Below are positions 39,187 through 43,353 of a stretch of DNA of 64,000 bases, piece by piece. The stretch spans positions 1 to 64,000 of the forward strand of contig JAIXUS010000005.1 of the NCBI GenBank assembly GCA_027483445.1, written 5' to 3'. The notes beneath the pieces were generated by a model. The model had not been told where the DNA came from. It saw only the letters and a list, made by a program, of their open reading frames with translations, and did no database searches. The first letter of the stretch is position 1; each line of letters opens with the position of its first letter. Origin of the DNA: Bacteroidota bacterium (GTDB lineage: Bacteria; Bacteroidota; Bacteroidia; M30B66). Made by a program: the position numbers and the translations under genes.

Positions 39187-39224
39187 ACAAAAAAAGGTGC
39201 CCCCTTTAAGGCACCTTCTTTTAT
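39187..39224 (-). terminator. Terminator of the rhodopsin operon
   Basis: AAGGTGCC-(CCCTTTAA)-GGCACCTT forms an 8 bp perfect stem. In minus-strand orientation it is followed by a run of T (TTTTTTTTG). It lies ~25 bases after the NTF2-like gene's stop. Confidence 0.85.
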
Positions 39225-39246: not shown

Positions 39247-39708
39247 TTATTCTTCCACCATTTTCAGCATGCTACTGTGGTAGCGGCTTTCTTTCCAGGT
39301 TTCGCCCATCTTTTTCCAGATGATGGTGGCGATTACATCGAAACGAAAACTTTTGCCACCAACGCGCAGAACTTGTTGAAAATCGACTACGCCGTAACCC
39401 ATATCGCTGCCCGAAATAGCCTCGTAGCGGGTGATTTCGCTCCAGGTTTCGGCCTGCATGGTGTCGAGTTGGGCAAACAGTCCTTGGAACCAGTTTTCCC
39501 AGCCGGCGCGGTCGCGGATGACTTCGCTGCCGCCGGTGGTGTTGATGTCGATGATGCCAAAATCGTCGTCGCAAATGCCCGACAACCTCTCGAAATTATG
39601 CTGTGCTACGCAATCGAGCATTTGCACGGTGAGGTCGAAGAAAGGCTTGTTGCGGCTTTCAGCATCAACGCGATCAACCTGCGTGTGGTGTTGAATGAGC
39701 GTATTCAT
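39247..39708 (-). CDS. NTF2-like (SnoaL-type) protein coupled to rhodopsin
   Basis: 153 residues, no signal peptide, so cytosolic. The fold signature is an N-terminal helix pair ('VQMLDCVAQHNFERLSGICD', then DDF), 'RAGWENWFQGLFAQLDTM', strands around 'MGYGVVDFQQVLRVGGKSFR', and the closing 'ETWKESRYHSSML', which is typical of SnoaL_3/NTF2-like domains. Its ATG overlaps the rhodopsin stop by 1 base (TAATG), implying translational coupling and equal regulation. The NTF2-like fold holds small hydrophobic ligands in several families, including the carotenoid-binding C-terminal domain of orange carotenoid protein; a role in carotenoid or retinal handling is only inferred. Confidence 0.85.
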   Translation of the reverse strand: MNTLIQHHTQVDRVDAESRNKPFFDLTVQMLDCVAQHNFERLSGICDDDFGIIDINTTGGSEVIRDRAGWENWFQGLFAQLDTMQAETWSEITRYEAISGSDMGYGVVDFQQVLRVGGKSFRFDVIATIIWKKMGETWKESRYHSSMLKMVEE

Positions 39709-40463
39709 TAGGCTACCGCTGGTTTTTCATCGGCATACCCTTCGCTTACAGCAATGTTGTATACCACCAGTCCGAATCCAATTTTATTGATGGCATCGGC
39801 AATGTTGTAGAACAGGTCGACATTGGTTGATTCCCAGCCTAAACCGGTGTTGAGCCAACCTCCCGGCATACACATGTATCCAATTGGGTAGATGGCCCAG
39901 CCTACGAGTACGAACCATGCAAGGGTACGAATACCGCGGGTTACAGTTGGATTGTTGGATTGCTCGGATAGGGTTTTTACTTCACCAAACCATGCTGTGT
40001 AAAGAATGTACACGTAACCAATGGTTGAGATTACACCCCAAGTTACTGAGTGTCCGGTAGATCCGTCGGTGAAAGCCTCGCCGTAGTAACCGGCTACCAG
40101 CATGAGCACTGATGCTGCGATGAGTTTCCACATCAACGCGGGTTTAGCGCCTGCAGGCTTGGTGAGTAGGTAAAACTCCACACACATCAACGGTACGGTG
40201 AGGGTCCAGTCGATGTACCGCAGAGCTGTTGGGTTTTCGCCGGTTGCCGTGTAGTAGTCGCGCATGTAGTAATAATGCACGGCCGCTATACCGGTGATGA
40301 GACCTGAAACCAGCAACGAAGTTTTCCATTTTCCCTTCACTCTGCTGCGTTCGAAAAAGAAAAACACGGCTGCAGCGAACATCGCCATATAGCCTGTGAA
40401 AAAGGTGAATGCTACCGGATCATCTACCGGTATGCTCACAATGTTGGATAAAAGGGTTTGCAT
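39708..40463 (-). CDS. Proteorhodopsin-type light-driven proton pump
   Basis: 251 residues from the ATG at 40463; the frame extends to a TTG further upstream. Seven helices. Helix C reads RYIDWTLTVPLMCVEFYLL: proton acceptor Asp, Thr and donor Glu at the proteorhodopsin 97/101/108 positions (DTE set of outward H+ pumps), and Met at the 105 tuning position, indicating green absorption. Helix B has the conserved His in 'AAVHYYYMRDYY'; helix G has the retinal Lys in 'NIADAINKIGFGLVVY'. In helix E ('SVTWGVISTIGYVYILY') Gly aligns with Phe152 of green proteorhodopsin, the gap that lets a carotenoid antenna contact retinal in xanthorhodopsin-type pumps. No retinal-forming blh gene is nearby. Confidence 0.95.
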   Translation of the reverse strand: MQTLLSNIVSIPVDDPVAFTFFTGYMAMFAAAVFFFFERSRVKGKWKTSLLVSGLITGIAAVHYYYMRDYYTATGENPTALRYIDWTLTVPLMCVEFYLLTKPAGAKPALMWKLIAASVLMLVAGYYGEAFTDGSTGHSVTWGVISTIGYVYILYTAWFGEVKTLSEQSNNPTVTRGIRTLAWFVLVGWAIYPIGYMCMPGGWLNTGLGWESTNVDLFYNIADAINKIGFGLVVYNIAVSEGYADEKPAVA

Positions 40464-40772: not shown

Positions 40773-41399
40773 TTATAAAAGTCCGTGCTTAGCAGCCTGG
40801 CTAATCAAAGCAGCGGTGTTAAGCACCTGAAACTTGCTAAGGAGGTTTTTTCGATGGCTGTCGATGGTGCTGATGCTTACGAAGAGGCGGTCGGCAATTT
40901 CTTTGTTCGTAAGGCCATCTGCGATAAGCGAAAGCACTTCTTTCTCGCGACGGGTAACAATTGGAGCCTGCTCTGATAGGAAACGAAGCGGTTTCTCTTC
41001 CTTCAACATAGGATTCACTGCAATACCTCCTTCGCTTACGAGAGAAATCAGAGATTCAATTTCCTGGGTAGATGCGTTTTTAGTCATAAATCCACTACCA
41101 CCTGCCAGAATCATTTCACGCGCATAAGCCGGGTCATGAAAGGTGCTCATCCCAACAACGCGAACATCAGACAGCTCTTCCTTAATTTTCCGGCAAAATT
41201 CGATGCCATTTATTTCCGGCAGATTAATGTCGGTGATGACCATGTCGACCTTTGTTTTTCGCAAAAATGGCATGGCTTCGAGGGCTGAATTAAATTTTCC
41301 TGAAATTTCAATCCAGCTAAACTGAGCAAGCATATTGCTGAGTCCTTCCAAAACCACCGGGTGGTCGTCTACAATTACAAGTTTAATTGCCTTGTTCAT
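40773..41399 (-). CDS. NarL/LuxR-type response regulator
   Basis: 208 residues from the ATG at 41399 (MNKAIKLVIVDDHPVVLEG). Receiver domain with 'VIVDDH' acidic pair, the phosphoacceptor Asp in 'DMVITDINLPEING', and Lys in 'GFMTKNAS'. The C-terminal LuxR HTH is 'TRREKEVLSLIADGLTNKEI' followed by 'ADRLFVSISTIDSHRKN'. The start overlaps the kinase gene end by 17 bases, so this is the cognate pair. It lies 270-300 bp upstream of the rhodopsin gene on the same strand and is a candidate regulator of it. Confidence 0.93.
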   Translation of the reverse strand: MNKAIKLVIVDDHPVVLEGLSNMLAQFSWIEISGKFNSALEAMPFLRKTKVDMVITDINLPEINGIEFCRKIKEELSDVRVVGMSTFHDPAYAREMILAGGSGFMTKNASTQEIESLISLVSEGGIAVNPMLKEEKPLRFLSEQAPIVTRREKEVLSLIADGLTNKEIADRLFVSISTIDSHRKNLLSKFQVLNTAALISQAAKHGLL

Positions 41400-43353
41400 T
41401 GGGTAAGGTGAATTCAATTAAAAATGAGGTTCCGTTTTGCGGGCGACTTTCCAGATTTACTTTTCCACGCAAATACTCAATCCTGCTTTTCATGGTGTAA
41501 AAACCAATACCGGTCGATTTTTCCCACAGTTGCGGGTCGAAGCCCAATCCATCATCTTCATATTCCAAGGTAAGCAGATCGTCGTGCTGGCTTAATTGAA
41601 TTACAATCTGACGAGCCTGTGCATGTTTAAGCGTGTTATTGGCCAATTCCTGCACAAGGCGGTACACAATAATTTCATACGAAGAGGGCAGCCGACCCTC
41701 GATTCCATGATGTTCGAAATGAATTTTAGGCCCACCCGATTCCTCAATTCCGGCGCATAAACTCGCAATGGCCGAGAGCAGTCCATTCTGAATAAGGGCT
41801 TCGGGCATCATGTTGTGCGCTACACGCCGCATTTCGCGGATGGCATCATCGAGTTGCCTTAACGAACGGTCGAAAAGGCTCGCATGGTTTGGATTTACAA
41901 TGAGATTTCCTTGCATAGACGAAAGTGAAAGTTTAACACCCGAAAGCAGACTGCCAACACCATCATGAAGGTCTTTAGCCACACGGCTCCGCTCGTTTTC
42001 TTCGCCTTTGAGCATAGAGTCGAGAATGGTATTTTGTTTCTCTGTTTCAAGTCGTTTGATGTGTTCGGCTTGTAATTCGCTGTTTTTTTGAATGAGTTGA
42101 TTTTTACGTTTCTGGTTCCAATACAAGACAACAAAAAGAAATAATCCCAATAAAACAATTGCTGAAATGCTTACCAGAAGTGCTTTTTGCTTTTCGTAGA
42201 GCTCATTATTTAATTGAGTTTCTTTGCGTAATTTCTCCAGGGCAATGGCCTTTTTCTCACTTTCATATTGAGTGGCCAATTCTGCCGCTTTTTCATAGGC
42301 TTCAGCATTCAGAAGGCTGTCGTGAAACGCCGAATAAATGGTGTGATTTAAATAAGCATCCTTCCAATTTCCCTGTTCTGCAGCGGCCTCCGAAAAGCTT
42401 AAATGAATTTCCCGCAAAACCTGAAAGTCTTTTTCAATTCGGGCTTGCTTTATGGCCTCATCCAATAAGCTACGGGCTTCCTCAATTTTACCCAGTTTTA
42501 ATAAAGCCAAACCCTTCGACATTTGTATGGCTGTTTTTTGAGGATTACCGCTTTGATTTTTGAGATAACTCAGCGCAGAATCTGCGTATTGATTAGCCTT
42601 CTGGTAATTCTCAGAATCAAAATTCAAGGCACTGATATTTTGGAAAAAACTCAGCTTGTAATTTTTCTCTTCAATCCACGGAAATACGCTCAGCGCTTTG
42701 TCCATCGACTGCTGCATGGCCGATAAACTATCGAACTTCATGTAAATAATCGCAGCGTTGATACAGGCATTGGCATAAGCCCGGTGTTTACCTACGGCTT
42801 TAGAAAGTTCTTGCGATTGAAGGGCATATTTCAATGCTTCCGGCAAATTATTGGCGTCTTCGAACACAGAGGCCAGGGTAGAGTAGGTAATGGCCAGGTT
42901 GAGTGTATCAGAAACTTTTTCCTGAATGCGCGCTGCGTTGAGCAAAAATCGGGTTGATTTTTCCGGCTCATTTAACATATAATAGGCGTTGCCAATGGCT
43001 TGCATGGCCTTGGCTCTAGCCTTCTCATTATTGCTTAACCGTGCAACTTCATAGGCCTTACTGTAGAAACCAATCGCCTTTTGATAATGGCCAAAGTTGA
43101 ACTGCAACCTTCCAAAATCAACCCAAATCCGACTTTCCTGTGTTTTGTTCGACTCCGATTGGGCCAATTTGAGGGCCTGGCGGTAAAAGCCCATCGCCTT
43201 GGCCGAATCTGTATATTCATGCTGATAACCCAGATCGCGCAGGCGTTCCACACGTAAACCATTAGGCGTAGTAGCTGTTTGTCCAAACAATTCGTGCAAA
43301 TTGTTTCCTACAGCCATAACAAGAAAACTGATGATGACGAGCCTGCTGATCAT
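41383..43353 (-). CDS. TPR-containing sensor histidine kinase (HisKA_3)
   Basis: 656 residues. It has an N-terminal signal or anchor (LVIISFLVMAVGNNLHELFG), about seven TPR-like helical repeats (e.g. 'AKAMGFYRQALKLAQSESNK', 'AIGNAYYMLNEPEKSTRFLL'), a transmembrane helix ('ALLVSISAIVLLGLFLFVVLYW'-type, near residue 395), a coiled coil, then a HisKA_3 kinase with phospho-His in 'RVAKDLHDGVGSLLSGVKLS', and ATPase motifs 'ELANNTLKHAQA' and 'YEDDGLGFD'. The TPR part should be periplasmic. It pairs with the overlapping LuxR regulator. Confidence 0.92.
   Translation of the reverse strand: MISRLVIISFLVMAVGNNLHELFGQTATTPNGLRVERLRDLGYQHEYTDSAKAMGFYRQALKLAQSESNKTQESRIWVDFGRLQFNFGHYQKAIGFYSKAYEVARLSNNEKARAKAMQAIGNAYYMLNEPEKSTRFLLNAARIQEKVSDTLNLAITYSTLASVFEDANNLPEALKYALQSQELSKAVGKHRAYANACINAAIIYMKFDSLSAMQQSMDKALSVFPWIEEKNYKLSFFQNISALNFDSENYQKANQYADSALSYLKNQSGNPQKTAIQMSKGLALLKLGKIEEARSLLDEAIKQARIEKDFQVLREIHLSFSEAAAEQGNWKDAYLNHTIYSAFHDSLLNAEAYEKAAELATQYESEKKAIALEKLRKETQLNNELYEKQKALLVSISAIVLLGLFLFVVLYWNQKRKNQLIQKNSELQAEHIKRLETEKQNTILDSMLKGEENERSRVAKDLHDGVGSLLSGVKLSLSSMQGNLIVNPNHASLFDRSLRQLDDAIREMRRVAHNMMPEALIQNGLLSAIASLCAGIEESGGPKIHFEHHGIEGRLPSSYEIIVYRLVQELANNTLKHAQARQIVIQLSQHDDLLTLEYEDDGLGFDPQLWEKSTGIGFYTMKSRIEYLRGKVNLESRPQNGTSFLIEFTLPNEQGN

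Follow-up and report, generated by a model that had tools for sequence, protein, structure and literature searches.

The question raised by this locus is what a small NTF2-like protein does for the rhodopsin behind which it is encoded. The window, i.e. the whole stretch of DNA that was analysed (64,000 nucleotides of contig JAIXUS010000005.1 from a Bacteroidota bacterium), contains the two genes on its reverse strand, with the following features.

39708–40463, reverse strand: proteorhodopsin-type proton-pump rhodopsin, 251 amino acids (PF01036, Bac_rhodopsin, 5.2e-44; residues assigned by alignment)
40035–40037, reverse strand: codon of Gly143, the fenestration position, equivalent to Trp138 of bacteriorhodopsin (aligned to bacteriorhodopsin and a further 92 rhodopsins)
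39706–39710, reverse strand: TAATG joint of the rhodopsin stop and the NTF2 start, with common base 39708 (direct reading)
39247–39708, reverse strand: NTF2-like (SnoaL_3) protein, 153 amino acids (open reading frame, PF13474, AlphaFold, homologue alignment)
39194–39217, no strand assigned: terminator-like hairpin 3' of the NTF2 gene, with T runs on either side (folding energy, shuffles)

The rhodopsin and its joint with the NTF2 gene

The window rhodopsin is identified by its DTE motif and retinal-binding lysine as a proton-pumping proteorhodopsin; the alignment also places a Met at the spectral-tuning position, and the nearest solved structures are 9jov/9jou (2.5e-78). At the fenestration position of xanthorhodopsin it carries Gly143. 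The sequence-only reading had suggested this glycine as a correlate of the NTF2 gene, for which it proved uninformative: Gly occupies the position in 91 of the 94 surveyed rhodopsins, nearly all of them without an NTF2 gene, and a residue so near to universal cannot correlate with it.

The shared-base joint described in the same reading can be read directly in the sequence, base 39708 belonging to both genes, and the strong terminator proposed behind the pair was likewise borne out: the hairpin has a folding energy of −22.4 kcal/mol (z −3.85 on the coding strand, none of the shuffles being equally stable), with a T run behind it. It was flagged on the forward strand; since it is almost symmetrical, it may serve both strands. 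The further proposal of a closed bicistron yielding both proteins in a fixed ratio holds at some loci, but not at others, where the genes are separated by gaps of 28–211 bp, reversed in order, divergent or unlinked. A one-base overlap of stop and start is by itself ordinary in bacterial operons, and the weight of the pairing therefore lies in its recurrence. A second TAATG joint is present in a genome from a different family (L035/L090), the rhodopsins of the two loci being 80% and the NTF2 proteins 65% identical. No match to the Bacteroidota-type promoter consensus was found around the window pair. Genes for a LuxR-type response regulator and a TPR sensor kinase (40773–43353, reverse strand) lie on the same strand about 300 bp upstream of the rhodopsin, and the genes flanking other rhodopsin–NTF2 loci are not the same as these neighbours.

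Fold and family of the NTF2-like protein

The window protein matches PF13474 (SnoaL_3) with an E-value of 1.3e-6 and 29.2 bits (cut-off 22), as do all 16 family members at E ≤ 1 (best 1.3e-9). AlphaFold predicts an NTF2 cone, with three helices packed on a curved sheet (pLDDT 88.5 and pTM 0.83 with 16 sequences; pLDDT 86.6 with seven), and both Foldseek and VIA retrieve NTF2-like structures, with Z up to 13.6, which confirms the fold assigned earlier. Bile-acid 7-alpha-dehydratase and the CaMKII hub are, with proteins like them, the nearest folds, among which enzymes predominate (bile-acid dehydratase, LinA, scytalone dehydratase and ketosteroid isomerase). By sequence profile, CaMKII hubs are the nearest solved structures (1.1e-7). 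No signal peptide is seen in the 153-residue sequence, for which reason the protein is taken to be cytosolic.

An alignment with 15 homologues revealed 29 invariant residues, including the signature motifs CDDDxGIxD and WExWF, the polar residues Asp47–Asp49, Asp54, Glu71, Arg142 and His144, and, in the late strands, Trp131 and Trp138 (in a family alignment containing no OCP sequence). By its signature and its linkage to rhodopsin, the family is a distinct subfamily of SnoaL_3, within the broad SnoaL/DUF4440 group. A weak homologue in G657 (L098, E about 1e-5), next to a response regulator gene, was set aside as a usual SnoaL-type gene outside the rhodopsin-linked family.

According to the register of the CaMKII alignment, the inward-facing positions should be mostly Phe, Trp, Tyr, Val, Ile and Ala, with a single acidic position, Asp109 (Asp/Asn/Glu). 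The ligand-binding arginines of the CaMKII pocket align with Asp109, Ile129 and Ser145, and are gone from the present protein. By the same register, the even-numbered invariant residues of the last strand (Glu140, Arg142, His144 and Ser146) would point off the pocket, perhaps being turned towards a dimer interface or a partner.

The C-terminal domain of the orange carotenoid protein (OCP) is assigned to PF02136, and OCP and its homologues share an absolutely conserved Tyr (Tyr201 in OCP, Tyr28 in CCP2), with a conserved Trp in OCP (Trp288) and CCP2 (Trp111) (PMC7512017). None of the 16 family members matches PF02136 at E ≤ 1, and no Tyr is conserved within the first 90 residues across the 16 sequences; OCP membership of the NTF2 protein was rejected on these two absences. 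OCP structures are also absent among the fold matches listed by Foldseek and VIA, which by itself excludes nothing.

Recurrence beside rhodopsins

Members of the family were found in 18 genomes, 17 of which contain a rhodopsin gene, and the two genes are adjacent in 13 of the 18. The pair is thus not confined to the window genome, and the proposal that the two genes belong together is upheld; the link between the family and rhodopsin is strong. The NTF2 gene lies downstream of the rhodopsin, upstream of it, or divergently beside a KR2-like sodium pump. A GTDB genome scan with both sequences retrieved seven loci, comprising five intact pairs, one pair with a frameshifted NTF2 gene (L095) and one unlinked NTF2 gene (L092), the rhodopsin of which lies elsewhere in the same genome. 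Three of the intact pairs have a proton-pump rhodopsin upstream, while in the other two (L089 and L091) the divergent neighbour is a KR2-like NDQ rhodopsin; the names of the latter two bins (CSSed) suggest an origin in soda-lake sediment.

In a sample from the class of the window genome, rhodopsin is present in 89 of 395 genomes and the NTF2 family in two (the window genome and G098), in both of which the NTF2 gene is joined to the rhodopsin stop by TAATG. The well-sampled order of G782 contains the family in 13 of 291 genomes and rhodopsin in 99; a rhodopsin accompanies the family in 12 of the 13 (Fisher p = 1.4e-5), the exception, G852, being the sole carrier without one. Nine genomes of this order have the genes adjacent, with the rhodopsin first in G782, G783, G784, G892, G917, G922 and G1027 and the NTF2 gene first in G810 and G837. 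The genes are unlinked in four rhodopsin-bearing genomes (G781, G787, G806 and G934). In G784 (L095:5936–6416) a strong terminator-like hairpin of −21.2 kcal/mol separates the rhodopsin from the NTF2 gene, which is frameshifted, and a second frameshifted copy occurs in G806 (L124).

The rhodopsins linked to the family include DTE proton pumps of several clades as well as KR2-like NDQ pumps; the copies linked to the latter group with that of the window in the NTF2 tree. The NTF2 protein therefore seems to have had both proton pumps and sodium-pump-type rhodopsins as partners, changing from one to the other, and this argues for a function common to all of them. Two congeners of the window genome bear another proteorhodopsin lineage, and for this reason the rhodopsin–NTF2 cassette of the window was probably acquired from elsewhere. 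In one genome of the same genus (G001, L032:1857–3884), a rhodopsin of this other lineage is followed by a fused lycopene cyclase–Blh of 675 amino acids (PF05834 and PF15461). No relative was found in viral contigs, and none on plasmids.

Relation to retinal-supply genes

Blh (PF15461) is the β-carotene dioxygenase that converts β-carotene to retinal. Among the rhodopsin genomes of the order of G782, blh is present in three of the 12 with the NTF2 gene (G782, G784 and G810) against 60 of the 65 without it (Fisher p = 2.2e-6), in a hand-picked set from which genomes below 2 Mb were excluded, in which many members are bins and related genomes are non-independent. Outside this order, blh is absent from G098 (99% complete), G779 and G780 and present in the window genome and in G781, so that five genomes have both genes. 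On the rhodopsin tree there are at least 13 changes in the presence of the NTF2 gene; across seven independent pairs with good support, blh differs in the opposite direction to NTF2 in 3.5 and in the same direction in 0.1 (averages), and the tree-corrected sign test points in the same direction as the uncorrected comparison without being significant (median p 0.25). Five rhodopsin genomes of this order lack both the NTF2 gene and blh, and the rhodopsins of two that lack both, G822 and G878, are near those of blh-lacking genomes with the NTF2 gene (by tree and by sequence, respectively).

The slot beside a rhodopsin is usually occupied by a retinal-supply gene, i.e. blh, a lycopene cyclase, a lycopene cyclase–Blh fusion or an oxygenase of the RPE65 type, and where the NTF2 gene sits the usual gene tends to be missing. 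In G932 (L157:3028–5448) and G1017 (L160:1433–3858), two more of the five genomes with neither blh nor the NTF2 gene, an RPE65-type carotenoid oxygenase (PF03055, 1.8e-120) directly follows an NDQ-type rhodopsin. The blh and lycopene cyclase genes of the window genome form an overlapping pair on contig C46 (L088:1465–3604), unlinked to its rhodopsin, and phmmer searches with CrtI, CrtY and Blh queries detected no carotenoid gene cluster in the sequence, up to 20 kb long, that surrounds the NTF2 and rhodopsin loci. Taken together, the link of the family to retinal supply is suggestive. The chromophore-handling role proposed in the sequence-only reading is plausible, and the inverse relation of the gene to blh strengthens it, but its specific carotenoid-antenna part found no support, given the near-universal fenestration Gly, the failure to match PF02136 and the missing early Tyr.

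A candidate retinal handler and its alternatives

The explanation that we favour, at a probability somewhat short of even, is that the NTF2 protein is a soluble cytosolic accessory of rhodopsin that handles its chromophore and passes retinal to new opsin. The pocket of the cone would take up retinal, or an apocarotenoid precursor, and the bound retinal would be handed to freshly made opsin. The need for such a protein would be greatest in bacteria without Blh, in which retinal would be scavenged or come from some other route; in the window genome, where blh lies on a different contig, the protein would be a loader produced alongside the opsin. What the analysis shows is the NTF2 fold, a neighbourhood that recurs with pumps of two kinds, an association with rhodopsin across genomes and an inverse relation to blh. 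This reading is preferred because retinal is what the varied partner pumps have in common, and because the relation to blh and the retinal-supply slot are combined with a fold that is able to hold carotenoids (PMC7512017; PMC6123778). From these we infer retinal as the ligand, delivery rather than catalysis as the task, and a contact of the NTF2 protein with opsin. Counted against it are the five genomes with both genes, the tree-corrected p-value, the four unlinked copies, the rhodopsin-less carrier and the two frameshifted copies; moreover, opsin expressed in Escherichia coli can take up retinal without a carrier.

Many bacteria have rhodopsin genes and no known gene for making retinal. Rhodopsins without blh or diox1 are known in bacteria, Bacteroidetes being listed among them, and one such actinobacterium contains retinal made by an unknown route (PMC7734400). 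The delivery of retinal to opsin in cells is poorly understood, and its uptake by proteorhodopsin has been modelled with no mention of a carrier (PMC11322631). In the literature accessible without subscription, no paper was found that ties proteins of the SnoaL or NTF2 (nuclear transport factor 2) type to microbial rhodopsins; the rhodopsin-linked family is real and recurrent, and apparently undescribed. A soluble gene beside the rhodopsin, concentrated in blh-lacking genomes, is a concrete and readily testable candidate for retinal supply. The broader proposition that the family is the missing retinal-supply component of rhodopsin-bearing, Blh-lacking Bacteroidota, either as a carrier of scavenged retinal or as a new enzyme, is more doubtful; if true, it would explain how these bacteria obtain functional rhodopsin, a point left open in the literature. 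We know of no dedicated soluble retinal carrier for a bacterial rhodopsin, and such a protein would be new.

Next after the retinal handler ranks an enzymatic role, in which the NTF2 protein would catalyse a step on the route to retinal (as an isomerase, dehydratase, hydrolase or new cleavage enzyme), replacing or complementing Blh in blh-lacking genomes. The negative correlation with blh, the predominance of enzymes among the nearest folds, the invariant polar residues and the existence of a bacterium that produces retinal without blh, its route being unknown (PMC7734400), are all compatible with catalysis, which we nevertheless consider unlikely, since a clear metal site is lacking, the CaMKII register puts the invariants of the last strand on the face opposite the pocket, and blh is also present in five carriers. 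In addition, no NTF2-fold enzyme that cleaves carotenoids is known to us.

A signalling or regulated partnership, with the NTF2 protein reading or controlled by the light state of the rhodopsin, is less probable again. It has precedents in the soluble partners encoded beside other microbial rhodopsins (PMC2739507; PMC9529153), and the invariants of the last strand may be a surface for binding a partner, but the rhodopsins concerned are ordinary pumps of unrelated clades with full motifs (DTE and NDQ), and neither the unlinked copies nor the relation to blh would be explained.

It is distinctly improbable that the gene is a passenger, linked to rhodopsin through joint transfer in a mobile cassette for light use, its protein having an unrelated stress or metabolic role: the patchy spread, the different rhodopsin lineage of the two congeners, which suggests that the cassette probably moves, and the carrier without rhodopsin fit this account, but three arrangements, several rhodopsin clades and co-occurrence in 12 of 13 carriers exceed what one co-transfer would be expected to leave. 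Equally improbable is the idea put forward in the sequence-only reading, that the protein loads a carotenoid antenna (zeaxanthin or similar) into the fenestration, as suggested by the fold class shared with the cyanobacterial homologues of the OCP C-terminal domain (CTDHs), which shuttle carotenoids between proteins (PMC6123778), and by Gly143; it is weakened by the near-universal glycine and the absent OCP marks, and leaves the relation to blh unexplained.

Comparison with known systems

The CaMKII hub (association domain, PF08332) has the same fold as the NTF2 protein (VIA Z 13.2), which differs in standing alone, with no kinase attached, and scores 15.8 bits against PF08332, below the cut-off of 22.1. 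Blh and the RPE65-type oxygenases (PF03055) occupy the same slot beside rhodopsin as the NTF2 gene, but are membrane and β-propeller oxygenases, respectively, that make retinal and have folds unrelated to that of the NTF2 protein. The Anabaena sensory rhodopsin transducer and the glutamine synthetase of heliorhodopsin are also soluble partners whose genes neighbour that of a microbial rhodopsin (PMC2739507; PMC9529153); their folds differ, that of the Anabaena transducer being a β-sandwich, and the partners of the NTF2 protein are ion pumps. The CTDH/CCP proteins of cyanobacteria (PF02136) are likewise stand-alone soluble proteins with the NTF2 fold, with which the present family would share the pigment-carrier role proposed here; whereas they are associated with phycobilisome photoprotection, the present family is found in Bacteroidota beside rhodopsins.
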